Under the pieces are notes generated by a model that was given only the letters and a program-made list of their open reading frames with translations, did not search any database and was not told where the DNA came from. A stretch of 64,000 bases of DNA, from contig JAJZVX010000003.1 of the NCBI GenBank assembly GCA_021846985.1, positions 124,001-188,000 on the forward strand, given 5' to 3'. This document shows positions 23,986 through 39,031 of this stretch, in pieces. Within the stretch, counting starts at the first letter, position 1; every line of letters begins with the position of its first letter. The stretch comes from Acidobacteriota bacterium (lineage in GTDB: Bacteria; Acidobacteriota; Terriglobia; Terriglobales; Acidobacteriaceae). Made by a program: the position numbers and the translations under genes.

Positions 23986-26247
23986 TCAGGGCAGGGTCAC
24001 TTCCTGGTGGAGCGGCAGATCTTGTGAAGAGCCGCCGACCATGACGTCATAGGTTCCAGGAACGAGCTTCCAACTGTCGGAAGCCTCGCTGTAGATGGTG
24101 AGGCGGTCTTTGGCGACGGGAACGGTCACCTGCTTTGATTCGCCGGGCCCGAGCTCTACGCGCGCCCAGCCGATCAGTCGCTTGGGCGGTTCGCCCGCGG
24201 AGGCAGGAATCGAGGAGTAGACTTCGGCGATCTCGGTTCCCGCGCGCTCTCCGGTGTTCTTGACGGTAAAGGAGACAGTGAGCCCGTCACCCGGCTGCAC
24301 GCCCAGGCCGGAGTAGGCATACGTGGTGTAAGACAGGCCGTATCCGAAGGGGAACAGTACCGGCTTCTTCTGCGCGTCGTACCACTTGTAGCCGACCTCG
24401 AGCTTTTCGTTGTAGTAGATCTGAAACGGCGGCAGGCCCTTGGCCATCAGACTCATGGCCTTGGAAATGTCTCCGCGCAGCGAGGCCCAGTTGATCTCCG
24501 AGGCGGGCGGCGGCTGCACAATGGTCGGATGCGGCAGGTCGGCATCGCTCTTCGGGAAGGTAATGGCCAACTTGCCCGTAGGATTCACCTTGCCGGTAAG
24601 GATGTTGGCCAAGGCCTCGCCACCGCGGATGCCCGGATACCAGGCCTCTACGATGCCAGCCACCTTGTCCACCCACGGCATCAGCGCGGGGCTGCCGGTT
24701 TCAAGCACCACGATGGTCTTTGGGTTGGCAGCGGCCACCGCTTCGATCAGCGCATTCTGCTCCGGCGCCAGCGCCAGCGTGGGCAGATCCATGCCCTCCG
24801 ACTCCCACTGATAGGCAAAGACAATGGCCACGTCGGCAGCCTTGGCCGCAGCGATGGCGGCACTGACGTCGTCACCGGAGGTGTAGCTCAACTTGGCCGA
24901 AGGCATGGCGGCGACAAGAGCGCGTAGCGGCGAACTGGGCATCCACTGCATGCGCATGAAGGCTTCCATGGGGTTCTTCACAGGCGGAGGCGGAACCGCC
25001 GATCCGCCGGGCGCGTCGACCTGTGCCGAGCCGCCGCCGCAGATGACGCCCACATCCGCATGGCCGCCGATCAGCGCCACGCTATGGATCTCGGCAGAGA
25101 GAGGCAGAACGTTGTGCTCGTTCTTGAGCAGGACGATACTCTTTTCGGCAAGGCTCTGGGCAATGGCGTACCCTTTCTCAACATCAGGAACTTGCTTGAC
25201 GATCGGATGATCGAAAAGGCCACTGGCAAAGATCGTACGCAGGATACGGTGGACGTGATCGTTGAGCTCGGCTTGCGAAACTTCGCCGCTGGCGACTGCA
25301 TTCTTGAGTGCCTCGCCGAAGAAGAATTTGTCCGGCTGTTCCATGTCGAGGCCGGCGTGGGAGGCCTTGACGGTGGAGTGGGTGGCGCCCCAGTCGGAGA
25401 GGACGAATCCCTTGAAGTGGAAGTCATTCTTGAGAACGTCGTGCAGCAGGTAGCTGTTCTCGCAGGCAAAGTCGCCGTTAATGCGATTATAGGAGCACAT
25501 CACGCCGCCGGCGTCAGAGATGTCCAGCGCAATTTCAAAGGCGCGCAGGTCGCTCTCGCGCATGGAGCGCTTGTCGATGTTGGCGTTCACGGCGTTGCGG
25601 CCGCTCTCCTGGTCGTTGATAGCGTAGTGCTTGAGGTCGCCGATGATGTGCTGCGATTGAATGCCCTTTTCCACGTTGCCGTCCAGGGTTCCGGCCAGCA
25701 GCGGATCTTCTCCCTGATACTCGAAGGTGCGGCCGTTGCGCGGTTCGCGGGCCAGGTTGACGCCGCCGCCGAGCGACATGCTGTAGCCCTCGTCGCGGAG
25801 TTCGCGGCCGATAAGTGCGCCATATTCAAAGGCCGCCTGGGGATCCCAGGAAGAGGCGGCTCCCAGGTTGTTGGGCAGTGCGGTCGAATAGCGTCCGGCC
25901 GCCGCGCCGCGGGTTACGCCGTAAGCCGAGTCGGCCATCTGGATGGCCGGAATACCCAGGCGTGGAATGGCATTGCTGTAGCCGGCGCCACCATTCGACT
26001 CCGTGGGTCCGGTGGTGAAGAACGGCATGCCCTGGCCGTGAAGAAGAGAAATCTTCTCATCAAGAGTCATCTCTTTGATCACCAGGTCGGCGCGGAGATC
26101 GGGCAACAGCGTGGCGTCGGACCAGGGGTAGTGTTTGGGCGGCTGCATGCCCGGAAACTGGGCGGCCGCCAGCGGGGTCATGGCAAAGGCTGCGGCCAGA
26201 GCCAGCGCAAGCGCGGGAATCATCCGGCCATATAGAAACTTGATCAC
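23986..26247 (-). CDS. Secreted glycoside hydrolase family 3 beta-glucosidase
   Basis: This 753-aa enzyme is expected to remove glucose (or a related sugar) from the non-reducing ends of beta-glycans. It has a signal peptide (hydrophobic PALALALAAAF, cleavage near AAAQF), the GH3 TIM-barrel domain, the alpha/beta sandwich domain and a C-terminal fibronectin-III-like domain (GERAGTEIAEVY). The nucleophile is Asp285 in VLSDWGATHS. DLKHYAINDQE and VMCSYNRINGD are typical barrel blocks. Translation appears to start at a GTG at 26247, with AGAGGTG eight bases upstream. The gene ends against the ribosomal cluster and is divergent from the membrane protein gene at 26545. Confidence 0.94.
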   Translation of the reverse strand: MIKFLYGRMIPALALALAAAFAMTPLAAAQFPGMQPPKHYPWSDATLLPDLRADLVIKEMTLDEKISLLHGQGMPFFTTGPTESNGGAGYSNAIPRLGIPAIQMADSAYGVTRGAAAGRYSTALPNNLGAASSWDPQAAFEYGALIGRELRDEGYSMSLGGGVNLAREPRNGRTFEYQGEDPLLAGTLDGNVEKGIQSQHIIGDLKHYAINDQESGRNAVNANIDKRSMRESDLRAFEIALDISDAGGVMCSYNRINGDFACENSYLLHDVLKNDFHFKGFVLSDWGATHSTVKASHAGLDMEQPDKFFFGEALKNAVASGEVSQAELNDHVHRILRTIFASGLFDHPIVKQVPDVEKGYAIAQSLAEKSIVLLKNEHNVLPLSAEIHSVALIGGHADVGVICGGGSAQVDAPGGSAVPPPPVKNPMEAFMRMQWMPSSPLRALVAAMPSAKLSYTSGDDVSAAIAAAKAADVAIVFAYQWESEGMDLPTLALAPEQNALIEAVAAANPKTIVVLETGSPALMPWVDKVAGIVEAWYPGIRGGEALANILTGKVNPTGKLAITFPKSDADLPHPTIVQPPPASEINWASLRGDISKAMSLMAKGLPPFQIYYNEKLEVGYKWYDAQKKPVLFPFGYGLSYTTYAYSGLGVQPGDGLTVSFTVKNTGERAGTEIAEVYSSIPASAGEPPKRLIGWARVELGPGESKQVTVPVAKDRLTIYSEASDSWKLVPGTYDVMVGGSSQDLPLHQEVTLP

Positions 26248-26544
26248 AGTATTTCACCTCTTTTGAAGTGAACGGACCGTGAGCCGCCAGCTGAGAATGA
26301 AGAGAGTTCCGCAACACGACGGCTCACGCGATTCACTCGGCCGTCATAGTAGGTGGCTGAGAGGCAAAGATGCAAGGGTGCTACGGCTATAGATGGCCGC
26401 CATATTATGGGGTGCAAAGAGGCTTCTTGCTTTGTAGCGGTTAGAGCAGTTGCCGGGCTGGTAGCCGTGGACGTATGCTACGTTGAGCAGTGCGGAAGCA
26501 GTGGCCTCGGCAATGCGGGGCGCGTGATCGAAGCGCGAAGGCAG

Positions 26545-27846
26545 ATGACCGAAGATGGAGCACATCCCGGTAGCTGGATTCCCACAACGGAAGCGGACCG
26601 CGGTGTTGTACGCACTCAACTGGAGCGGATGCTGGCCAGCCCGCTGTTCCGGAATAGCAGACGATATCCGAGCCTTCTGCGCTTCCTGGTAGAGCAAACT
26701 CTGGCCGGGAACGATGCCCTCCTGAAAGAGCGCACCCTGGGTGTCACCGTCTTCCATCGCGCGCCCGACTACGACACCAATCAGGACACCGTGGTCCGGC
26801 TCACGGCCAGCGAGGTGCGGAAGCGCATCGCGCAATATTATCATCAGCCGGAACACGCCGGAGAACTGCAAATCGACCTGATCCCGGGCACCTACGTACC
26901 GGTGTTCCGGAAAATCGAACCGGCGGCAGTCCGTGCGCCGGCGTCGGATGAAGTGCCCGCTGCCCATCTCGCTCAAGAAAGCAACGGCAGCCCGGTGGCA
27001 GGGCCCAAGCTTCTGCGCACGAAATCGGTTCCAGGCCCCCTTGCTGCGGCCACTGCGCGCCAGTGGGCTGCGTGGATTGTGGGAACGGCTACGGTGGTGG
27101 CTGCCATTCTGGGCACTGTAGCCTGGCGGCAACACGACGAGGCTGAGGCCCGCAGTGCCGAACATCAACTATGGGAGCCCATTCTGCAGGAACCGGAGCA
27201 GGTCCAACTGGTCCTCTCAGACCTTTCAGGGGCAGTCAGCGCGGCAGCCCTGCGCGACCGCGAAGGCGGAGCGGTCTTGGTGCAACTGTTGCAACTGGGC
27301 GAGATGGTGAACTATCGCGATGCGCTGGCTGAGGCGGGCATTGTGGCCTTCCTGGCTCACCACAACAAGCCCTACACGCTGGCCTTGTCCACGCAGGCGA
27401 GTTACCCGGAACTGCAGCGGGGCGCCAGCGTGCTGGTAGGTGGGCTCAGCAACGTCTGGACGATGCGAGTCACTGCGCCTCTGCGCTTCCACTTTGTGCA
27501 GCGCGGCAACACCTTTGTCTACGGCATCGAGGACCGCAAGCACCCGGAACTGGGCGGATGGAACGTCAACATGGCGCAGACCTCCGACCGGGCAGCGGAA
27601 GATTATGCGCTCGTGGCCAGGATCTTTGATCAGACCACGGGCCAGCCTGTCGTGGTGGTTGCGGGACTGGGTGCAAACGGCACCAATGCAGCGGCGGAGT
27701 TCCTGCTGGACCCGGAGCGAGCCGCCGAACTGACCGCGCACGCCCCGCAGAACTGGCAGCGGATGAACATGGAGGCCGTAATCCGCACACAGATTCTCGA
27801 CAACCACGCGGGACCGCCGCACCTGGTGACCTGCGTCTTCTGGTAA
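26545..27846 (+). CDS. Membrane protein with an N-terminal regulator-like domain of a type frequent in Acidobacteriota
   Basis: This 433-aa protein starts with a cytoplasmic domain (about residues 20-120) containing SPLFRNSRRYPSLLRFLVEQTL, FHRAPDYDTNQDTVVRL, EVRKRIAQYYHQPEH and a closing GTYVPVF. This domain type is found on acidobacterial proteins and resembles the winged-helix-like modules on some TPR or cyclase proteins. A single transmembrane segment lies at about residues 174-194, and the remaining 240 residues would be periplasmic. The ATG at 26545 has AAGG upstream. It faces the GH3 gene and is followed by the convergent TonB receptor gene. A sensor or signalling role is inferred; no enzyme motif is seen. 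Confidence 0.6.
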   Translation: MTEDGAHPGSWIPTTEADRGVVRTQLERMLASPLFRNSRRYPSLLRFLVEQTLAGNDALLKERTLGVTVFHRAPDYDTNQDTVVRLTASEVRKRIAQYYHQPEHAGELQIDLIPGTYVPVFRKIEPAAVRAPASDEVPAAHLAQESNGSPVAGPKLLRTKSVPGPLAAATARQWAAWIVGTATVVAAILGTVAWRQHDEAEARSAEHQLWEPILQEPEQVQLVLSDLSGAVSAAALRDREGGAVLVQLLQLGEMVNYRDALAEAGIVAFLAHHNKPYTLALSTQASYPELQRGASVLVGGLSNVWTMRVTAPLRFHFVQRGNTFVYGIEDRKHPELGGWNVNMAQTSDRAAEDYALVARIFDQTTGQPVVVVAGLGANGTNAAAEFLLDPERAAELTAHAPQNWQRMNMEAVIRTQILDNHAGPPHLVTCVFW

Positions 27847-28090: not shown

Positions 28091-31000
28091 CTAGAACGAG
28101 AAACGCGTGCCAAACTGAAACTGACGCGGGCTGTTGGCGGTTGAGGTAATCTGCCCAAAGACCGCCGCCTCTGAAGGACTGGACTGCACGGCCGTCATGC
28201 TGGGTACATTGGGCATTCCGAACTGCGGGTGGTTGGCGATGTTGTAGGAGGAGATTTCGAAGCGCAGATCGCGCTCTCCGCCCAGTGAGAAATGCTTGTA
28301 GAGCGAGAGGTCGAGATCGCGGGCGCCCATGGTGCGCACATGGTCGAGATAGGCTGGCGTATTGCCGGGCAGGAAGGGGCTAGAGGGAATCGAGAAGCAC
28401 GCATAGTTGAACCAGGTGGACGTGTTGTGCGGCGCCCCGATCGAGGGGTCGCAACGGAGATTGGGCCTCTGGTTGAAGTAGGAGACACCCGCGCCTACCG
28501 CAGGGGACGCGATAGGAATGCCCGAGCTGACATAAGCGATTCCATTGATGGTCCAGCCGCCGAAGATACTGTTCGCCGCACCGGTAAGGTTTACCGCGCG
28601 CCCCCGCCCAAGAGGGAGATCGTAGGAGACCTGGCCGGTGAATTGATACTTCACATCCTGCGGACTCACCGCGTGCTCGTACTTCAGGTCTTTGGCGTCC
28701 TGCGCGGCCCCGCCATGGGCACCGACGAAGCCGAGCGGCGGGTTGCCGTCATCGGTCATCAGCTTGGCGTAGGTGTATGTCAACAAGGCGGTGAAGTGCT
28801 GTGTGAGACGCTTCTGCACTTTCATCTGCAGTGAGTGGTACTCGGAGTCGCCGCCCGGGTAGCCATGCACGTTAACGCCGTTGCCCGAGCCGTAGCTGCC
28901 GTTGCCAAACTGCGGGAACTGCTGTAGCGACACCCACAGCGGAACCGTGGCGGCGCCATAGTTGGCGTTGGTGGTGGGCAGGATGTTGGCCCATGTGTTC
29001 GGCACCATGGAGCAACTGGGGTTGGAAGTATCGACGCACAGCGATGCGCCGTGGTTGGCGATGGTGGCCAGATCCAGCTGGTTGAAGTCGTACGAGCCAA
29101 GGGGCAGGAAGAGACCGCGGCTGCCCACATAGCCGGCGGAAAGGATGACGCTGTAGGGCAACTGATATTCAAAGCCGAAGTTGAAGTTGTAGGTTGTGGG
29201 CGTGCGCTGGCTGTGAAGCATGGTGTTGAGTGAGGTGCCCAGGTTGTTGGCGTAGCCCGAAGGCGAACTGATGGGCTGCACCACGCCGTTGGGGAATGGA
29301 TTCGAGAGCGAGTAGATGCCCGTGACACTGGGAGCTGGACTGCCCGGAGCAGCCCCCACGCAGGCCGACGTTCCGTTGTAAACCGTGTTGCCGTCGGCGT
29401 TATAGCAAGTGGCGTTCCAGTTGGTCACCGTGGAGTAGCCGTCGCTGTCCAGTGAGGCGCCGCCCACCATTTGAGGGCTGGGGCCATAGTAGAAGCCGGC
29501 TCCGCCGCGCAGGATCAGGCTCTGGGACGCCTGCCACGCGAATCCGAGACGCGGTCCGAGATCCTTCATGTTGGTGGTGAAAGGTGAGCGGTTGCCGCCG
29601 TTTACGTATACCTCCGCGCCGGTGTAGTTGACTCCGCTGGCCGCCGCTGCAATTGCAGGATCGAAGTATTCCAGGCGGTTGTGGCGCTCGGTGCGTCCGC
29701 CGAAGATGTCCCAGCGGAGGCCCATGGTAATCGTGAGGGATTTGGTGGGCTGGTAGGTATCCTCGATAAAGGTTGCGTAGTAGGGGTTGGCCTCGGCCAC
29801 AAAGAGGTCTTTGGTAAAGTTGTAGCTCTCGCTGCCGGGCGTGGAACCCATGCCAATCAGGAACGAGGCGAAGTCGCTGCCACCAAGGGCCGAGGCCACC
29901 GTCTGATCGGTCGCCGTGATGTCGAAAGCGTACGCGCCGGAGGGCGCCGGAGGCTGGCCGACATTGAGGAAGCGCTTCATGTATTCGAAGCCGGTGGAGA
30001 GTACGTGCTTGCCCCAGGTCTTGGTGATGGCGGCGCTCGCGTCGTTGTTTTCGCTGGCATAGATGAAGGTGTTCCAGTTGGCGGTGCCGCCGATGCCGCC
30101 GCCCACATCCCAGAAGTTCACGTACGGCAGCGTCTTATAAACCTCCTGAGCTGCCAGCGATGCGGGGAATCCAAGGGAGGTGATATCAAAGCCGATCTGT
30201 CGCGGATCGCCTCCCTGGTTTTCGTAGTGGCGGGTGAACGAATAGCGGAGCTGCAAAATCGTGGTGGGATTCAAGGTGATGTCGTCAGCCACCAGCACAT
30301 TGCGGCCGTTGGTGACGTTTTGGGCGTAGTTCAGATCCCACATGTTGTTGAAGGCGTTCACTAGCGAGGTATAGAGGCGGTCGAACGAGAAGCGGCCAAA
30401 GATGCGCTGGCGCTCGCTCTTGATCCAGTCCATGCGGATGTCGAAGCGCTGCGCTGTGAAGGGATCCAGGCCCGGGACGTAAAGATTGTTGAGTGCTCCG
30501 GTGGGATCCGAGTCGCAAGTTGCCGCACTGGGATAGTTGCATTTCGGGAAATTCGACAGAAAGGTAACCGCGATCGGATTGGGGTTGATGATCTTGTTGC
30601 CAGGGAACGGCTGGCGGGTGCCGTCAGGATTGTCGGGCAGCAGCGGGTCATAGATCGTGAAGGTATCGCCAGAAAAGTCGCCCGTACGCTCCGGGGTTGT
30701 CGGCACCGTAAAGACGTTGGAGCCGTCGAACTGCTGCTGTTGGGTGGCTTCGTAATCGGCAAAGAAAAACAGCTTGTTGTGAAGGATGGGGCCGCCGATT
30801 GAACCGCCTTCCTGGTAACGGTGGTAGGCAGGGGCCTGGTTTGGCTGCCCGTTCATGATCTGGCTCTGTTTGTTGAAGTACTCGTTCGCCGCCATTATGT
30901 TAGGGCGAAATACGCCAAAAGCGTCGCCGTGGAACTTGTTGGTGCCGGACTTGGTCACGAGGCTGATCACGCCTGCACCGCCGCTCTGGTAGGAGGCCGG

Positions 31001-31744
31001 GGTGTTCTGGGTTTCGACGCGTGTCTCCTGCACGCCGTCTTCGGGAATATCGAGGGCGGGAATGATCGCCCCGGCGTTATTTTCAGCAATGCCCAGTGGA
31101 CTGCCGTCCACCATGTAGTAGACGGAGCCAACAATGGCTCCGTTGATGGTGTAGGAGGAGACATCGACCCCGGGACGACCGCTGGTTATGCTGCCGATCA
31201 CCTGTGAACTGGAGGAGTTGGGGGTGCCGTTGGCAGGCGTAACGCCGGCGCTCAACTGCACCAGATCAAAGACGTTGCGTGTGAGCAGAGGAACGCGGTC
31301 GATGGTCTCCGAGGAGATGAGCTGGCCGACGGTCGAGTTGCTGGTCTCCATCAGAGAGGTGGATTCGCTTACGGTAACCACCTCGCTGACGCTCCCCACC
31401 GGCAGACTGAAGTTCACGGTGGACCCCTGATCGACAGTAACCCGAACGGCTTTGCGCACGACCGTCTGGAACCCATTGGCCGAGGCCGTGATTTGATACG
31501 AGCCTGGGGTAAGAGAAACAAAGGTATAAAGGCCGGCGCCGGTGGTAAGGGTGGAGAGTTTGACTCCGGTTCCCTTCTCTTCGGCGGTGACCTTGGCCGC
31601 TGGAACGATGGCGCCGGTCTGGTCGGTAACCAGACCACTGATGGAACCTCTTCCCGCCTGGGCGCACAGGAGGGAGGGCGAGAGAAGGAGCAAGAAAGAG
31701 CAAAAGATGCAGGCCGCTGCGGCCGGCAGGCGACGGGTGAGCAT
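28091..31744 (-). CDS. Oar-like TonB-dependent outer-membrane receptor 1
   Basis: This 1217-aa protein is an outer-membrane importer of large substrates. Its signal peptide is followed by a carboxypeptidase-regulatory-like domain (GSISGLVTDQTGAIVPAAKV), a plug domain region around ETIDRVPLLTRNVFDLVQLSAGV and a long beta-barrel ending in the aromatic tail FGTRFSF. The first plug blocks and the terminal Phe are typical. I chose the ATG at 31744 because GGAGG lies seven bases before it; the longer frame starts inside the operator. A sigma-70 promoter and a LacI-type operator lie just upstream, and the repressor gene is divergent, so expression is probably induced by a sugar or oligosaccharide. 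Confidence 0.93.
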   Translation of the reverse strand: MLTRRLPAAAACIFCSFLLLLSPSLLCAQAGRGSISGLVTDQTGAIVPAAKVTAEEKGTGVKLSTLTTGAGLYTFVSLTPGSYQITASANGFQTVVRKAVRVTVDQGSTVNFSLPVGSVSEVVTVSESTSLMETSNSTVGQLISSETIDRVPLLTRNVFDLVQLSAGVTPANGTPNSSSSQVIGSITSGRPGVDVSSYTINGAIVGSVYYMVDGSPLGIAENNAGAIIPALDIPEDGVQETRVETQNTPASYQSGGAGVISLVTKSGTNKFHGDAFGVFRPNIMAANEYFNKQSQIMNGQPNQAPAYHRYQEGGSIGGPILHNKLFFFADYEATQQQQFDGSNVFTVPTTPERTGDFSGDTFTIYDPLLPDNPDGTRQPFPGNKIINPNPIAVTFLSNFPKCNYPSAATCDSDPTGALNNLYVPGLDPFTAQRFDIRMDWIKSERQRIFGRFSFDRLYTSLVNAFNNMWDLNYAQNVTNGRNVLVADDITLNPTTILQLRYSFTRHYENQGGDPRQIGFDITSLGFPASLAAQEVYKTLPYVNFWDVGGGIGGTANWNTFIYASENNDASAAITKTWGKHVLSTGFEYMKRFLNVGQPPAPSGAYAFDITATDQTVASALGGSDFASFLIGMGSTPGSESYNFTKDLFVAEANPYYATFIEDTYQPTKSLTITMGLRWDIFGGRTERHNRLEYFDPAIAAAASGVNYTGAEVYVNGGNRSPFTTNMKDLGPRLGFAWQASQSLILRGGAGFYYGPSPQMVGGASLDSDGYSTVTNWNATCYNADGNTVYNGTSACVGAAPGSPAPSVTGIYSLSNPFPNGVVQPISSPSGYANNLGTSLNTMLHSQRTPTTYNFNFGFEYQLPYSVILSAGYVGSRGLFLPLGSYDFNQLDLATIANHGASLCVDTSNPSCSMVPNTWANILPTTNANYGAATVPLWVSLQQFPQFGNGSYGSGNGVNVHGYPGGDSEYHSLQMKVQKRLTQHFTALLTYTYAKLMTDDGNPPLGFVGAHGGAAQDAKDLKYEHAVSPQDVKYQFTGQVSYDLPLGRGRAVNLTGAANSIFGGWTINGIAYVSSGIPIASPAVGAGVSYFNQRPNLRCDPSIGAPHNTSTWFNYACFSIPSSPFLPGNTPAYLDHVRTMGARDLDLSLYKHFSLGGERDLRFEISSYNIANHPQFGMPNVPSMTAVQSSPSEAAVFGQITSTANSPRQFQFGTRFSF

Positions 31745-31771
31745 GAATGAGCCTCCAAAAGAAATTCCTAT

Positions 31772-31787
31772 ATTCAAACGTTTGAAT
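31772..31787. promoter_or_regulatory. LacI-type operator upstream of receptor 1
   Basis: The 16-base perfect palindrome ATTCAAACGTTTGAAT has the CG-centred form of LacI/GalR family operators. It lies 28 bases before the receptor start codon and downstream of the promoter at 31801-31829. A copy of its 14-base core is found at 33086-33099. Confidence 0.85.
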
Positions 31788-31800
31788 TGGTTGCGGAAAC

Positions 31801-31829
31801 AATGTAGGATGATCCCGTTCGACTGTCAA
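31801..31829 (-). promoter_or_regulatory. Sigma-70-type promoter of receptor 1
   Basis: Reading the minus strand, TTGACA (31829-31824) is followed after exactly 17 bases by TACATT (31806-31801). The operator begins 13 bases further on, where a bound repressor would block the start or early elongation. Confidence 0.75.
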
Positions 31830-31957
31830 GAACAAAAATGTGCGCCTTGCGGAAAACGCCCCCTGCCGTGCATCGGGTCTCCGGAGCCGCAAACCGAAAC
31901 GCTGTGGAACAATAGGCTTTCAACGCTCGGCCCTTTTCGTCCCAAGGAGGCTCGCCA

Positions 31958-33052
31958 GTGGTTCAACGGAGGTCAGGGCACGTTACGCTTCTCGATATTG
32001 CGCGCGCCTGCGGTTGTTCGGTCTCAACGGTCTCCATCGTGCTCAGCGAAGCGCCGCTCTCAAAGAACGTCGCCGCGGCGACGCGCGAGCGCGTTCGGGA
32101 GATGGCGCGCCATCTCGGCTATCATCCCGACGCTTATGCGCGCTCGTTGCGCCGCCGGCGCAGCCAGACGATTGCCGTGCTGGCCTACGATCTCTCCGAT
32201 CCCTTCTGCATCCCCCTGGTGCAGGGCATCCAGTCCGGCCTCAAGCCGGCCAGCTATCTGCCTCTGCTCATGGATGCACAGACCAAACGAAAGCTCTTCG
32301 ACAATTATCTGCGCATGATCCTCGAGCGGCGCGCGGAAGCGGTCATCGTAATCGCGAGCTGGATCTTCGAGGAAACCAATCTGCTCGCCGATATCGAGAA
32401 AAACAAGGTTCCCATCGTTATCATCGGGCGCGACCTGACAGAAAAGAAGATCAACTCCATGCTCATCGACAACCAAGCCGGCGGAGCCATGGCGTTTACT
32501 CACCTTGCCACCATGGGCCATCGCCGCATTGCCATCATTCGCGGGCCAGAGGAGCTGCTCGACAGCGCACCACGATGGAAGGGCGTGCAGCAGGCCGCGG
32601 CCCAAGCCGGCGTTGTCATCGATGAGCGCCTGGTGCTGCAACTGCCCAGCCTCACCGATTCGGCTTTTGGATTTGAGGGTGGATTGCGCGCGGCCAGGAA
32701 ATTGCTTGCCGGAAAACAATCGTTTACGGCGGTGCTGGCCTTTGATGATATGACGGCATTAGGGGTCATCCGAGCCCTGAGCGAGGCCGGACGGCGGGTC
32801 CCGGAGGACTGCTCCGTAATCGGCTTTGACGATGTGCTGCCCGCGCGCGTGGCCACACCGGGAATCACCACTGTGCACCAGCCCTTGCACGAGATGGGAT
32901 TGCAGGCGGCCACGTGGGTAATGGAGGAAATCAAGGTGCGGCAGGCAGGAACACAAGGCCGGGTGCGACTAGAGTATGCGCAACCGGAACTGCTGGTGAG
33001 GGCCTCCACGACGAGGGCCGCGGAGGACGGCAAGCGACAGTCACAGGCTTGA
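31958..33052 (+). CDS. LacI-family transcriptional repressor
   Basis: This 364-aa regulator has the N-terminal helix-turn-helix and hinge helix (VTLLDIARACGCSVSTVSIV at residues 9-28, then RARHLGYHPDAYARSLR-like sequence) and a periplasmic-binding-protein-like sensor domain with FDDMTALGVIRALSEAG. Members bind CG-centred palindromes and release them on binding a sugar or sugar phosphate. The GTG at 31958 is preceded by AAGGAGG. Its gene lies between two near-identical palindromes that it most likely recognises, next to the promoters of the receptor gene and of the GH2-permease pair. The inducer is unknown. Confidence 0.95.
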   Translation: MVQRRSGHVTLLDIARACGCSVSTVSIVLSEAPLSKNVAAATRERVREMARHLGYHPDAYARSLRRRRSQTIAVLAYDLSDPFCIPLVQGIQSGLKPASYLPLLMDAQTKRKLFDNYLRMILERRAEAVIVIASWIFEETNLLADIEKNKVPIVIIGRDLTEKKINSMLIDNQAGGAMAFTHLATMGHRRIAIIRGPEELLDSAPRWKGVQQAAAQAGVVIDERLVLQLPSLTDSAFGFEGGLRAARKLLAGKQSFTAVLAFDDMTALGVIRALSEAGRRVPEDCSVIGFDDVLPARVATPGITTVHQPLHEMGLQAATWVMEEIKVRQAGTQGRVRLEYAQPELLVRASTTRAAEDGKRQSQA

Positions 33053-33077
33053 CATCCGTGAGGAAATGGTGGAATAT
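33049..33077 (+). promoter_or_regulatory. Sigma-70-type promoter of the GH2-permease unit
   Basis: TTGACA (33049-33054), overlapping the repressor's stop codon, is followed after 17 bases by GAATAT (33072-33077). The second operator begins nine bases after the -10 element, so it would cover the transcription start. Confidence 0.8.
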
Positions 33078-33085
33078 TCCCTTCA

Positions 33086-33099
33086 TTCAAACGTTTGAA
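33086..33099. promoter_or_regulatory. LacI-type operator upstream of the GH2 gene
   Basis: TTCAAACGTTTGAA is a 14-base perfect palindrome identical to the core of the operator at 31772-31787. It lies about 75 bases before the GH2 start codon, just downstream of the promoter. Confidence 0.85.
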
Positions 33100-33173
33100 C
33101 TAGACACCCGCCGTCATGCCACAGATCCGACAGACCCCAAGATGGCGGTTGCGATGAGGAGGCGCCAAAGCGC

Positions 33174-35825
33174 ATGAAAACGAGGATTGCCTTTTTACTC
33201 TTGCCCTTGGTTCTGTCCCCGCACTGTCTGCGGGCAGAAACGGTTATGCCCCTGCACGATGGCTGGCGCCTGCAATCCGCCTGCCCGGTAAAGGCGGAGG
33301 GAGAAACCGTCAGTACGCCCGCCTTCAAAGACGACGGCTGGCTGAAGACCGCCGTGCCAAGCACGGTGCTGGCCGCACAGGTAGCCGCCGGCGTGGTGCC
33401 CGATCCGTACTTCGGCGACAATCTGCGCAAACTGCCTGGAACCAGCTACCCCGTCGGGCAGAACTTTTCCAATCTGCCCATGTCCGCCGACAGCCCCTAC
33501 GCCTGCGCGTGGTGGTATCGCAAAGCCTTTGTCGCTCCGGCTGCGGCTGCCGCGGGCGAACACTACTGGCTGCTCTTTGGCGGCATCAACTACCGCGGCG
33601 AAGTGTGGTTGAACGGCCACCGCATTGCCGACGGCTCGGAGGTCGCCGGAGCCTATCGCACTTACCGTCTCGACGTAACGGAGTTTCTCGCGCCGGGGAA
33701 AGAAAACGTGCTGGCGGTGAAGGTGACGGCGCCCACGGAGAAGGATCTGGGCATCAACTGGGTGGACTGGAATCCCGCGCCGCCGGACAAGGACATGGGG
33801 CTGTGGGGCGCGGTTGCGCTCGTTGAATCCGGCGCGGTCACGGTGGAGTCGCCGCTGGTCGTTACGCACTTTCCCGATGCCACGCTGGATACAGCCGAAC
33901 TGACCGTATACGCCGAATTGCACAACGCTACGGACAAGACGGTGAAAGGCACAGTGGCGGGCACCGCGGCGGGAGCGCCTTTTGAGCAGGCCGTCGAGCT
34001 GGGGCCGCATGAAGACCGCACCGTGGTCTTTGCGCCGGAGCAGTTTCCCGCACTTCGCATTCACAATCCGAAGCCGTGGTGGCCGTTCCAGATGGGCAAC
34101 GCGCACCTCGAAAAGGTGACGGTGAGCTTCAGCGTGCAGGGCCAGGAGACCGGGGAAAAGAGCGCCGAGTTTGGCATCCGCGAAATCACCTCGGAGCTGA
34201 CCGTGCACGGCAGCCGGCTCTTCCGCGTCAATGGCAAGCCTATTCTCATTCGTGGCGGCGGCTGGTCGCAGGACATGATGCTGCGCACCAACGCGAAGCG
34301 GCTGCGCGATCAGTTCCGCCTCGTACGCGACCTGCGGCTGAACACCATCCGGCTGGAAGGCAAGATGGAGACCGACGACTTCTTCCGGCTGGCGGACGAG
34401 CAGGGCATCCTGGTCATGGCCGGTTGGTGCTGCTGCGACCACTGGGAGCATTGGAAAAGCTGGACTCCAGAAGACCTGCAGATCGCCACGGCTTCGCTGC
34501 GCTCGCAGATGCTGCGGCTGCGCAACCATCCCAGCCTTCTGGTGTGGCTCAATGGCAGCGACAATCCTCCCACGCCCGAGGTGGAGCGCGCCTATCTGCG
34601 GGTGGAAGCCCAGACCCACTGGCCCAATCCGATTCTCAGTTCGGCTACCGGCGCCACAACCACGGTGACGGGCGAGAGCGGCGTCAAGATGACGGGACCG
34701 TACGACTATGTGGCCCCCGGCTACTGGTATCTTGGGCTACGCTACGGCGGGGCCGCGGGATTCAACACGGAAACCAGCCCGGGTCCGGCCATTCCTTCGC
34801 TGGCCAGCCGCAGAAAGTTCCTTCCTGATCCGGAGGCATGGCCGCCCAGCGCGGACTGGAGCCTGCACAATGGCGGCGGCGGGTTTGTGAACCTCAAGGT
34901 CTTTGACGAAGCCATGGAGGCCATCTACGCCAGGCCTGCCTCGGCGGCGCAGTACGAGCGCATCGCGCAGACCATGGAGTACGACTCGGAGCGCGCCATG
35001 TTCGAGGCTTATGCCAAGAACAAGTACGATTCGACGGGCGTGATCCAATGGATGCTGAACAATGCCTGGCCGTCGATGATCTGGCATCTCTACGACTACT
35101 ATCTCGACGCCGGCGGCGGCTACTTTGGCGCCAAGAAGGCCTGCGAGCCTGTACATATCCAGTACTCCTACGACGACCAGTCGATTGTGGCCGTGAACAG
35201 CACCTATGCAGCTGTCAAAGGCCTGCACGCTACCGTCGAAATACACAACCCGGCATGGAAGAAGCTCTACAGCGCGGAAGGAACGGTGGACTTGGCGGCC
35301 GACTCGGCCGAACGCGTCTTTGCGATTCCAGAAAGCCTCTTTGCAGGCGCAGAGCGCACCTTCCTGATCGACCTCACGCTCAAAGACGCGCACGGACAGA
35401 TCGTGAGCCACAACTTCTACTGGGTTCCGGGCATGCTCACAACGTTTGACTGGCAGACGACCGAATACACGCACACGCCGGCGGCGCGGCAGGAAGATCT
35501 CACTGCCCTGGCTAATCTGCCGCCAGCCAGCGTGAGCGCGCATGCGGAAGCAATGACGTCCGCAAAGGGACGCGAGATTCGTGTTCGTCTCGAGAACCAT
35601 TCGCAAATACTGGCCTTCCAGGTGCGCGCAGCTGTGCGGACCAAAGCGGGCGACCTGATTGCTCCGGTGCTCTGGTCGGATAATTGGATTGAGCTGACGC
35701 CAGGCGAAACCACCACGCTTACCGCGCTGCTGCCCGACGAAACAACGGGCGAGCCGGTGGTCGAGGTGGAGGGCTGGAACGTGGCCCCCGTAACGCTGAC
35801 GCCCCAACTTGTGGCTGAAAAATAA
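33174..35825 (+). CDS. Glycoside hydrolase family 2 enzyme, exo-beta-D-glucosaminidase-like
   Basis: This 883-aa secreted enzyme has a signal peptide ending near LRAET, a GH2 sugar-binding domain, an immunoglobulin-like domain and a TIM barrel starting at FRVNGKPILIRGGGW. The acid/base position is occupied by Asp463 in WLNGSDNPP rather than the Asn-Glu pair of most GH2 enzymes, and the nucleophile is Glu533 in FNTETSPGP. This Asp/Glu pairing and the surrounding sequence are characteristic of exo-beta-D-glucosaminidases that act on chitosan oligosaccharides; a beta-mannosidase is the main alternative. AGGAGG lies 11 bases before the ATG, which is rather far. The APC permease gene follows after 8 bases, and both are downstream of a LacI operator. 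Confidence 0.85.
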   Translation: MKTRIAFLLLPLVLSPHCLRAETVMPLHDGWRLQSACPVKAEGETVSTPAFKDDGWLKTAVPSTVLAAQVAAGVVPDPYFGDNLRKLPGTSYPVGQNFSNLPMSADSPYACAWWYRKAFVAPAAAAAGEHYWLLFGGINYRGEVWLNGHRIADGSEVAGAYRTYRLDVTEFLAPGKENVLAVKVTAPTEKDLGINWVDWNPAPPDKDMGLWGAVALVESGAVTVESPLVVTHFPDATLDTAELTVYAELHNATDKTVKGTVAGTAAGAPFEQAVELGPHEDRTVVFAPEQFPALRIHNPKPWWPFQMGNAHLEKVTVSFSVQGQETGEKSAEFGIREITSELTVHGSRLFRVNGKPILIRGGGWSQDMMLRTNAKRLRDQFRLVRDLRLNTIRLEGKMETDDFFRLADEQGILVMAGWCCCDHWEHWKSWTPEDLQIATASLRSQMLRLRNHPSLLVWLNGSDNPPTPEVERAYLRVEAQTHWPNPILSSATGATTTVTGESGVKMTGPYDYVAPGYWYLGLRYGGAAGFNTETSPGPAIPSLASRRKFLPDPEAWPPSADWSLHNGGGGFVNLKVFDEAMEAIYARPASAAQYERIAQTMEYDSERAMFEAYAKNKYDSTGVIQWMLNNAWPSMIWHLYDYYLDAGGGYFGAKKACEPVHIQYSYDDQSIVAVNSTYAAVKGLHATVEIHNPAWKKLYSAEGTVDLAADSAERVFAIPESLFAGAERTFLIDLTLKDAHGQIVSHNFYWVPGMLTTFDWQTTEYTHTPAARQEDLTALANLPPASVSAHAEAMTSAKGREIRVRLENHSQILAFQVRAAVRTKAGDLIAPVLWSDNWIELTPGETTTLTALLPDETTGEPVVEVEGWNVAPVTLTPQLVAEK

Positions 35826-35833
35826 CCGCGCGC

Positions 35834-37177
35834 ATGACAGGCACCACCGAACAGACCAACCCGGGCGCCATCGGCCTGAAGCGCACCCTGCGCTTCAGGG
35901 ATCTGGTTCTTTACGGAATCATCCTCATCCAGCCCACGGCGCCCATGCCCAGCTTCGGCGTGATCTATCACGAAGCGCGGGGCCATGCCGTCACGGCTAT
36001 CCTCCTCGCCATGGTGGCCATGCTCTTCACCTCGGTGAGCTATGGCCGCATGGCGCGTGTCTATCCGCACGGCGGATCGGCCTTCCTCTATGTGGGCAAG
36101 GAAATCCATGCCAGCCTCGGCTACCTGACCGGATGGTGCCTGGTCATGGACTATGTTCTGAACCCCCTTATCTGCACCATCTGGTGCAGCCGCGCCGCCA
36201 TGAACTTCCTGCCTGAAATTCCCTATGTGGCATGGGCCATCTTTTTCGCGGCGCTCTTCACCTTGCTGAACTGCAATGGTGTGGAAACCTCAGCCCGCAT
36301 CAACGCCGGAATGGCCGCGGCGCTAGGCATCGTCATCCTTCTGGTGCTCGGAGCGGCGGCGCACTGGCTCTTGCGCCTGTCGCATCCGGGTGCGAGTTTT
36401 TTCCTCGATCCCTTCTACGACAAGGCGACCTTCAACACTACGGGTCTGCTGCGTGGAACCTCCATCGCCGTGCTCACTTACATTGGGTTCGACGGTATCT
36501 CCACGCTCACCGACGAAGCCCGTGACCCCGCGCGCAGCGTACCGCGGGCCATTGTGCTCACCTGCTTCATCACTGGCGTGCTGGCCAGCATCGAGGTGTA
36601 CGCTGCGCAATTGGTGTGGCCTCGCGGGTTGGCCTTTCCGGAGATCGACACTGCCTATTGCTTCGTATCCGGACGCATGGGCGGCCCAATTCTCTTCCTG
36701 ATCGTGAATGCGGCGCTGCTGCTGGCCAACATGGGCTCCGGGATGGCCTCGCAACTGGGCGCGGCGCGTCTGCTCTACGCCATGGGCCAGGATGGAGCGC
36801 TGCCGCGGCGTTTCTTCGCCGCCGTGCATCCCAGGAGCCGCATTCCTCGCAACAATGTACTGCTGATTGGCGCCATCTGCCTGGCGGGCGCGCTGGTCTT
36901 CAGTTATCAACTAGGCACGGAACTACTCAACTACGGCGCGCTGCTGGCCTTCATGGGCGTGAACGTGGCCTCGATTCTCCGCGGTTGGCGTCACGGACGA
37001 TGGTCGCAGCTCTTCCCCATGCTGCTTTCACTTGGCGGCTTCCTGACCTGTCTCTTCCTGTGGATCAACCTGGGGCCACTGGCGCGCATGGCGGGCACCG
37101 GATGGGCACTGCTCGGAATCCTGTTCTGGGTGGTGCGCCGCCGCGCAACGGTGCTGCCGGAAGAAGCAGCGGCTTGA
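35834..37177 (+). CDS. APC-superfamily permease
   Basis: This 447-aa integral membrane protein with about twelve hydrophobic segments belongs to the amino acid-polyamine-organocation superfamily (QPTAPMPSFGVIY near residue 33, YVGKEIHASLGYLTGW near 91, YIGFDGISTLTDEARDP near 217). Members usually import amino acids or amines. It starts 8 bases after the GH2 stop codon, so it is almost certainly in the same transcript under LacI control. This makes an amine-bearing sugar such as glucosamine, or another product of the same polymer, a reasonable guess for its substrate. That link is inference from context, not from residues I can assign. Confidence 0.85.
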   Translation: MTGTTEQTNPGAIGLKRTLRFRDLVLYGIILIQPTAPMPSFGVIYHEARGHAVTAILLAMVAMLFTSVSYGRMARVYPHGGSAFLYVGKEIHASLGYLTGWCLVMDYVLNPLICTIWCSRAAMNFLPEIPYVAWAIFFAALFTLLNCNGVETSARINAGMAAALGIVILLVLGAAAHWLLRLSHPGASFFLDPFYDKATFNTTGLLRGTSIAVLTYIGFDGISTLTDEARDPARSVPRAIVLTCFITGVLASIEVYAAQLVWPRGLAFPEIDTAYCFVSGRMGGPILFLIVNAALLLANMGSGMASQLGAARLLYAMGQDGALPRRFFAAVHPRSRIPRNNVLLIGAICLAGALVFSYQLGTELLNYGALLAFMGVNVASILRGWRHGRWSQLFPMLLSLGGFLTCLFLWINLGPLARMAGTGWALLGILFWVVRRRATVLPEEAAA

Positions 37178-37949: not shown

Positions 37950-39031
37950 TCACGAAAGCGCGGGCAGGCGATCGATCCACTGCGTTCCGTTGGCCGCTGC
38001 TTCCATCAGGATGCAGAAGGCCTGGGCCTCGGTGGAAGTGCCCGGACGGTCGAAGTTGGGCGCGCCGCACACTCCCTGGACGTATCCATCGCGGTCCATC
38101 CTGGCCCGCGCCGCCGCGCGCATCCGGTCCGCGTGGGCGCGGTAGCTGCGCGGCAGCCAGCCCTCGGTTGCGCCTTCGTAGGTTGCATACGCCAGCATCT
38201 GCGCCAGATTGGTCTCCACAAAGGTGTGGGGATCGTCAACCACGTCGTGGAAGAGACCGTCGGACCGCTGATGCGCCAGGCAGCCGTCTATAAGTTCGCG
38301 TGCAAAGGCGGCCAGTCGCTCGCGGTCCGCGCGCCGCTTGCCCGGCAGGCTGCGGATGACGCGCGCCAGCCCCGCCGCCGCCCAGCCGTTGCCGCCACCC
38401 CAGCAGCTCGCATCCTTGAACTGCCCCTTGCCGTCGTCCCAGATGTGCCCCAGCAGCTTCCTGTCGGGAATCCAAAGCCGCTTGCGGAAGCCTTCGGTCT
38501 GAAGGATGGCTTCGTCGTAGAATCCCATCGCAGCCAGAAAGGGCGGCGCGCCGTTAAAGCCGTCCGACCAGACCTCTGGTGCTTCAAAGACGTGATAGAG
38601 AATGCCGCTCGACGAGCGCGACGCCTTGAAACGAATCCACGTCAGCAGCTCTGCCACAGCCGCCTGCATCTGCGGGTCGCGGGTCCACTCAGCCGCCTTG
38701 GCATAGGCCACGCCACCCATGGCGGGGTCCGTGGGTCCGCCGCTGACCACCACAGCCAGACGCCCATCGGGAACGCGCTGCACCATGGCCGCTCGCGTGA
38801 GCCGGATGACGCCCTCGCGATCGCCTGACTCGAGTAAAGCCTGGGCCAGGATGCCTCCCAATCGCGACGCTGCATGGCCAAGCCAGCGGCCCTGGCGCGC
38901 TCGATGCGCCGCGCGCTCTCCGAGTGCCCACGATCGGCGGCAGCAGGTTGCGGCAGGGGCTGAGAGGCTTGGGCCACAGCCCGGCCGAGGCCCACAATAG
39001 CGCTGGCGTGAAGAAAGCGGCGGCGATTCAT
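37950..39031 (-). pseudogene. Tat-exported GH88/GH105-like hydrolase gene with a frameshift
   Basis: The start ATG at 39031 has GGAGGG nine bases upstream and opens a Tat signal (MNRRRFLHASAIVGLG), then a spacer and GLAMQRRDWE. From about 38860 the homology moves to another frame, which reads GILAQALLESGD and continues to 37950. Family members keep these parts in one frame (roughly MQR-x-WEQG-x-x-x-QALLE). The body shows the six-hairpin fold marks FNGAPPFLAAMGFYDEA and CWGGGNGWAAAGLARV of unsaturated glucuronyl or rhamnogalacturonyl hydrolases. The single break lies near TGGGAGG. It may be a true inactivating indel or a sequencing error; otherwise about 360 aa would be encoded. Confidence 0.75.

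Follow-up and report, generated by a model that had tools for sequence, protein, structure and literature searches.

A predicted LacI-controlled unit for glucosamine-rich oligosaccharides in an Acidobacteriaceae genome and a candidate hexosamine branch of the APC permease family

Four neighboring genes in a 64,000-nucleotide stretch of an Acidobacteriaceae genome (contig JAJZVX010000003.1 of assembly GCA_021846985.1; 3.79 Mb in 48 contigs), hereafter the window, probably form a LacI-controlled unit for the uptake and digestion of glucosamine-rich oligosaccharides, with chitosan fragments as the likeliest substrate. We place the probability of this reading at roughly 0.65. It is built on features that were observed directly, namely the sequence itself, the operator sites, the promoter matches and their conservation, the residues of the enzyme, and the linkage of the genes. 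As a circuit, it is a LacI regulon of ordinary type whose details are new; of most interest is a predicted hexosamine permease branch of the APC family, to which the last gene of the unit belongs. The features, in window coordinates, are as follows.

28091 to 31744, minus strand: Oar/TonB-type outer-membrane receptor (Pfam CarboxypepD_reg and OMP_b-brl_4 barrel)
31772 to 31787: operator 1, a 16-base palindrome, ATTCAAACGTTTGAAT, between the receptor promoter and the receptor start
31829 to 31801, minus strand: receptor promoter, TTGACA-N17-TACATT (sigma-70 scan)
31958 to 33052, plus strand: predicted LacI-family repressor (Pfam LacI and Peripla_BP_3; relatives PurR and CcpA)
33049 to 33078, plus strand: promoter of the GH2 and APC genes, TTGACA-N18-AATATT, its -35 box overlapping the lacI stop codon
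33086 to 33099: operator 2, a 14-base palindrome, TTCAAACGTTTGAA, directly after the GH2 -10 box
33174 to 35825, plus strand: predicted exo-beta-D-glucosaminidase of glycoside hydrolase family 2 (GH2; subfamily GH2_16, CsxA-like, from Pfam, the CsxA alignment and key residues)
35834 to 37177, plus strand: APC-family permease with a QPTAPM motif at the break of transmembrane helix 1; predicted hexosamine permease

The exact 14-mer TTCAAACGTTTGAA is the perfect core of both palindromes and occurs only twice in the genome, once on each side of lacI, with the operator centers 1313 bases apart; the next-best match in the genome carries two mismatches. Looping of the DNA between the two operators is conceivable. 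Allowing up to three mismatches within the window yielded three matches, two of them perfect, against a shuffle mean of 1.01 (8 of 100 shuffles reached three). A sigma-70 scan of positions 31600-33300 returned two promoter-like sites, compared with 0.4 expected. An earlier sequence-only reading had described both palindromes, their common core, and their positions on either side of lacI exactly, and had assigned to each a TTGACA-N17 promoter. The two sites found by the scan are those promoters, and the 17-base spacing holds for the receptor, but the second promoter has a spacing of 18 with a better -10 hexamer.

That reading's calls of a receptor, a lacI gene, a GH2 enzyme, and an APC permease were likewise confirmed by the open reading frames (ORFs) and by Pfam. 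The LacI protein carries a helix-turn-helix domain (PF00356) and a sugar-binding domain (PF13377), both above cut-off. The receptor, whose start we read as the ATG at 31744 rather than the TTG at 31777 given by the ORF lister, matches a barrel model (PF25183, 574 bits) and an N-terminal carboxypeptidase-regulatory domain (PF13620, 72 bits). A Plug domain had no Pfam match in the window receptor at an expectation value (E) of 0.001; the receptor adjoining the LacI relative in neighborhood L093 has one. The GH2 and APC genes are separated by 8 bases. Across the window and 40 fetched neighborhoods (35 picked via GH2 and 5 via the operator; L numbers denote fetched neighborhoods), the only protein clusters present in more than seven loci were GH2 (36), LacI (18), APC (16), and the receptor (14). 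Since only these clusters recur, and the flanking genes vary between genomes, we take the unit to be the receptor, LacI, GH2, and the permease. All four are also present in the cultivated relatives Occallatibacter savannae (L207), Terriglobus roseus (L244), and Terracidiphilus gabretensis (L228).

The pairing of operators goes beyond chance. Within a sample of 150 genomes of the family (G numbers), the exact 14-mer was present in 13 and a reversed control pattern in none; several of these sites adjoin LacI and receptor genes, and others lie elsewhere. We also searched named loci, the best 80 of 373, fetched via GH2 alignment, over 450 bases upstream of and 60 bases inside each gene, with 50 base shuffles per region; some contigs are common to this set and the family-genome set, so that the two are not independent. 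In the strict subset of loci, where LacI is at least 57% and the receptor at least 50% identical, the receptor-side operator was found with at most one mismatch in 25 of 26 loci, and in none of the base shuffles. The locus counted as a miss, L225, has a receptor match that begins at residue 565 and a one-mismatch site 97 bases upstream. Upstream of the site, each of the 25 receptor-side loci shown has a TTGA hexamer (by reading, 24 TTGACA and one TTGACT). On the GH2 side, the operator was recognized with at most one mismatch in 11 of 30 relatives and with at most two in 14, and a promoter arrangement like that of the window is visible in most of the 14 shown. The absence of an operator on the APC side (0 of 18 relatives) is expected because the APC gene lies inside the GH2 transcript. 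The claim of two matched operators and two promoters under one repressor thus gains support from relatives, whereas recognition of the GH2-side operator in no more than 14 of 30 relatives had been missed. In genome G062, a receptor 71% identical to that of the window has a perfect operator on a different contig from GH2. This arrangement indicates that the operator follows the receptor, and it suggests control in trans.

Separately, the third-best operator-like site, TTCAAACGATTGAT (G000:C40:53993-54006; L004:1501-1514), is followed about 25 bases later by a receptor-like ORF (L004:1540-2562) that, by reading, seems cut short after a plug-like region. It is possibly a decayed member of the regulon, or else a chance match.

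The sequence of the GH2 enzyme fits, with good support, an exo-beta-D-glucosaminidase of the CsxA type in subfamily GH2_16. Among solved structures, its closest match is CsxA of Amycolatopsis orientalis (PDB 2vzs), with similarity over window residues 27-875 and an E of 6.6e-163, compared with 3.2e-24 for the best beta-mannosidase. CsxA residues 394, 468, 469, and 541 align with E395, S462, D463, and E533, so that the glutamate binding the C2 amine, the acid/base aspartate with its preceding serine, and the nucleophile glutamate (which we take CsxA Glu541 to be) all have counterparts in the window protein. None of the four varies among the 36 proteins from the window and the family genomes or among the 80 named relatives. 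CsxA Glu394 is reported to bind the amine of glucosamine, and Asp469 to be the acid/base (PMC6566704). Serine-aspartate (SD) in place of asparagine-glutamate (NE) at the acid/base motif, and glutamate in place of the usual histidine in the C2 pocket, are both present here (S462-D463 and E395); this combination is reported as the mark of GH2_16, with tryptophan at the C2 pocket in the beta-mannosidase subfamilies (PMC12243196). The positions of Asp463 and Glu533 as the active site, and the call of an exo-beta-D-glucosaminidase, therefore survive from the sequence-only reading, the latter supported by the full-length similarity to CsxA, the SD motif, and the C2-amine glutamate. We consider it very improbable that the glucosamine reading is wrong, with the enzyme being a beta-mannosidase or having another glycan as its substrate, given the contrast in E values, the two subfamily marks, and the invariance of the key residues among named relatives; this alternative draws on the multifunctional nature of the GH2 family, on a Pfam Mannosidase_ig match that stands beside a match to the exo-beta-D-glucosaminidase Ig domain, and on NCBIfam matches that are of the galactosidase and glucuronidase types only, all far below their cut-offs. 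The window protein is shorter than the CsxA chain (883 versus 1032 residues), and its gene, unlike that of CsxA, belongs to a Gram-negative unit that also encodes an outer-membrane receptor, a LacI protein, and an APC permease. Its N-terminus, by reading, resembles a signal peptide, which makes a location outside the cytoplasm likely. Chitosan is a plausible polymer for the enzyme, but the evidence is stronger for glucosamine as the sugar that it would release.

The genomic company of the permease points toward amino sugars. Among GH2 rows (at least 45% identical) in the 150 genomes, 42 of 89 have an APC relative within 1.6 kb. Of the 77 APC rows that are at least about 49% identical, 31 lie within that distance of such a GH2 row. 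Seven of the 77 also have an AgaS-family row within 6 kb, compared with 0.10 expected under a uniform model that ignores relatedness; none of the AgaS-family matches in these genomes reaches the curated cut-off, and 53 of 60 AgaS rows have none of the 77 APC rows within 6 kb. As a control, we used a different APC family in the same genomes (118 rows), with a query taken from a GH2 neighborhood. None of its rows lay within 1.6 kb of GH2 or within 6 kb of AgaS, and of the four within 6 kb of GH2, three were the query itself and its two closest relatives.

We also surveyed 44 neighborhoods of APC rows not beside GH2_16 and counted 40, in which the APC gene was called with its motif in the first 80 residues (L180, L182, L186, and L194 were excluded). 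At least one marker lies within 6 kb in 21 of the 40, as AgaR (10), AgaS (7), GatZ (5), melibiase-like genes in two clusters (11), NagB-like genes (2), and a distant GH2 relative (1, which is what the label "GH2" denotes in L169); under the stricter markers alone (AgaS, GatZ, and NagB-like), the number is 12. AgaR, however, is one of a broad family of regulators, and the substrates of melibiase-like proteins may not be amino sugars. The AgaR representative exceeds its curated cut-off (270.3 versus 260), the AgaS and GatZ representatives fall below theirs, and the NagB-like label is weak.

A phylum-wide search of 297 genomes gave 29 APC rows, and the neighborhoods of the 16 not seen before were fetched. 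The motif is present in 13 of these 16, and markers in 7 of the 13; among the rows from outside the family, markers occur in 3 of 8. The company comprises GH2 with the SD residues (L278, L280, L284, and L285), a melibiase-like gene (L279), and AgaS-like genes (L286, together with GatZ and PfkB, and L287). The gene order in L284 and L285 is LacI, GH2, APC, and a PfkB kinase, and in L280 a PIG-L type gene, of the family of N-acetylglucosaminyl-phosphatidylinositol de-N-acetylases, stands between GH2 and APC. A GH2 gene beside APC in L276, from another family of the phylum, was not counted as GH2_16 because it has neither the SD nor the nucleophile residue. Members of the APC subfamily thus recur beside AgaR, AgaS, GatZ, and PIG-L type genes. 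On a tree of 97 APC proteins, made by a quick method and biased by the many selected through GH2, the state "beside GH2" changed 12 times, at least 9 of them on well-supported branches, and "beside aga genes" changed 11 times, at least 8 of them on such branches; each change may be a gain or a loss, and the labels, those of L276 and L169 among them, are affected by how long a contig is. The spread of both links over the tree argues against a single inherited accident.

Two further observations concern neighbors of the permease. PIG-L/LmbE type genes beside GH2_16 and APC occur at L280:6113-7474 and L102:12641-15352, an arrangement that would suit prior deacetylation of chitin oligomers. A sulfatase with an SGSH_C domain (the C-terminal domain of N-sulphoglucosamine sulphohydrolase; L147:9248-10789) adjoins close APC relatives (76-79%); a sulfatase also stands beside APC in L148. 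The domain scan covered L147, and both genomes are without a listed GH2_16 row.

The structure of the permease gives a second line of evidence on its cargo. Pfam models PF00324 and PF13520 match above cut-off, and an AlphaFold2 model built from 18 rows (mean predicted local distance difference test score, 83.6) has the APC fold, superposing on ApcT (3gia) with a Z of 40.5 and a root-mean-square deviation of 2.5 over 400 residues, and on GkApcT (6f34) with a Z of 39.7 and a deviation of 2.7 over 412 residues at 23% identity. The breaks in helices 1 and 6 fall at residues 36 and 218, respectively. Helix 1 of GkApcT is reported to contact the alanine carboxylate through Thr43 and Gly44, with helix 6 and Ile40 contacting the amine (PMC5803215). 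The stretch I40 I41 G42 T43 G44 I45 F46 of that carrier aligns with I32 Q33 P34 T35 A36 P37 M38 of the window permease, in which the glycine-rich, carboxylate-binding break was not found. Q33, P34, and A36 are invariant in 57 of 57 subfamily proteins that were not selected for the motif, and P37 is present in 55, giving QP[TVI]A for IGTG; the helix 6 stretch Y216-D220 (YIGFD) is invariant in the same 57. The QPxA motif is absent from three more distant APC relatives (L288-L290, 34-41% identical) and hence marks a subfamily rather than every nearby APC protein. Because the break in helix 1 differs, amino-acid transport is not to be assumed, while membership in the APC family, by fold, stands. 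The changed helix 1, together with the retained helix 6, would fit a cargo that bears an amine and lacks a carboxylate. The change is no proof of this, as T35 and A36 retain their backbone amides.

On balance, we lean toward a hexosamine (glucosamine and galactosamine) branch of the APC family, marked by the invariant QPxA and recruited repeatedly into GH2_16 and aga loci of Acidobacteriota. The sequence-only reading was right as to the APC family and had overlooked this probable role as an amino-sugar carrier. That the same regulatory unit and GH2 are served by a general permease of glycan loci, carrying neutral sugars or oligosaccharides, is unlikely, though not negligible. Such a carrier would account for the 19 of 40 loci with no marker at all, for the small number of loci with the stricter markers, for the uncertain substrates of the melibiase-like genes, and for the members that adjoin GH92 and GH94 (L283), the sulfatase of L147, or a ceramidase-like gene (L277). 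It sits poorly with the excess of AgaS neighbors over both expectation and control, with the several changes of the GH2 and aga links on the tree, and with the retained amine-binding helix 6. Distinctly improbable, in our view, is a conventional amino-acid permease that has no link to the unit beyond a common transcript and, for example, scavenges amino acids from fungal cell walls or peptidoglycan; the fold and the family are those of amino-acid carriers, yet the stretch that binds carboxylate in GkApcT is replaced by QPxA in every subfamily protein, and the linkage to amino-sugar genes is repeated.

With a hexosamine carrier in that position, the unit could work as follows. Without inducer, a LacI dimer would occupy both operators, at the start regions of the receptor and GH2-APC transcripts, and block both; a sugar derived from the substrate would bind LacI, and both promoters would then fire. 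The receptor would bring oligosaccharides across the outer membrane, the exported GH2 enzyme would trim glucosamine from their nonreducing ends in the periplasm, and the APC permease would move glucosamine through the inner membrane. In this scheme, we infer repression, the identity of the inducer, the substrate, transport, and the cell compartment. Several results weigh against it. First, 16 of 30 relatives have no recognizable GH2-side operator. In six of these, GH2 lies closer behind lacI than in any locus with a site (by estimated gaps) and its transcription may start further upstream; this does not account for the remaining ten. Second, no APC row is listed within 1.6 kb of 47 of the 89 GH2 rows, some of which are near contig ends. 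Third, neither NagB (TIGR00502, E up to 0.001) nor the AgaS family (E of 1e-40) was found in the window genome, and the sole SIS-type candidate (C3:43802-44746) is ambiguous. It scores best with GlmS-type models (351, against a cut-off of 381), has no glutaminase part, and resembles a stand-alone GlmS isomerase domain. These results leave the cytoplasmic route for glucosamine without clear gene support.

One further candidate member was rejected. The c5 family (726-748 residues, with an F5/8C module) was not found in the window genome at an E of 1e-60. Among relatives, G119 has a perfect operator 60 bases ahead of c5, and G040 has one ahead of a receptor-c5 pair; in G142, it comes 62 bases past the c5 end. 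The c5 gene follows GH2 in L252-L255 (L252 being cut by a contig end). GH2_16 is present in 43 of 48 genomes with c5, and in 83 of all 150, counts that are uncorrected for relatedness. One of three proteins scanned with Pfam had a weak, sub-threshold GH39 match, and the best PDB matches of the module, weak at an E of 6.6e-4, are domains of glucanase/chitosanase entries that presumably bind chitosan. The family, seen at L112:9507-11687, L113, L116, L098, and L252-L255, is a candidate chitosan-active enzyme family.

Set against known systems, the regulator is familiar. Members of the LacI/GalR family use palindromic operators with a central CG, often several per regulator, and the window protein has the helix-turn-helix and the periplasmic-binding-protein fold of PurR, CcpA, and RbsR; the window unit differs from those regulons in its exact operator sequence and in combining an Oar-type receptor with GH2 and APC. 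The permease has the APC fold and the helix 6 YIGFD of GkApcT and other CAT-type carriers (6f34 and 5oqt), but it differs from them in having IQPTAPM for IIGTGIF in helix 1 and in belonging to a subfamily that is often beside amino-sugar genes. FrlA, the fructoselysine carrier, is an APC member that carries a sugar-bearing amine, with a cargo that keeps its alpha-amino acid end; its NCBIfam model matches the window permease weakly (50 bits, against a cut-off of 800). The aga/gam clusters of Escherichia coli, for galactosamine and N-acetylgalactosamine, import by the phosphotransferase system. The AgaR, AgaS, AgaZ/GatZ, and PfkB-type genes beside members of the APC subfamily recall those clusters, but in the Acidobacteriota loci the APC member fills the transporter slot. 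A literature search by titles, mostly without subscription papers and so weak, covered glucosamine transport by APC carriers, chitosan with TonB, LacI, or Acidobacteria, and aga genes with Acidobacteria, and brought up no report of such a unit or of an APC hexosamine carrier.

If the prediction is true, amino-sugar carriers would be encoded by many Acidobacteriota genes whose only matches, like those of the window permease, are to models of amino-acid permeases. A candidate gene with a testable sequence signature would then be available for the passage of glucosamine and galactosamine across the inner membrane in this group of soil bacteria. The unit also supplies a clear, conserved, putative LacI operator for the Acidobacteriaceae and a possible means for these bacteria to grow on fungal chitosan.

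On the evidence of the neighborhoods, the unit does not extend to the GH3 and GH88-like genes or to the rest of the window. An ORF of 497 residues (26353-27846), between the GH3 gene and the receptor, has no Pfam or NCBIfam match at an E of 0.001. The GH3 gene (753 residues, 23986-26247) and the GH88-like gene (37950-38861) are near the unit and are not conserved with it; a GH3 relative (55%) adjoins GH2 in L087.

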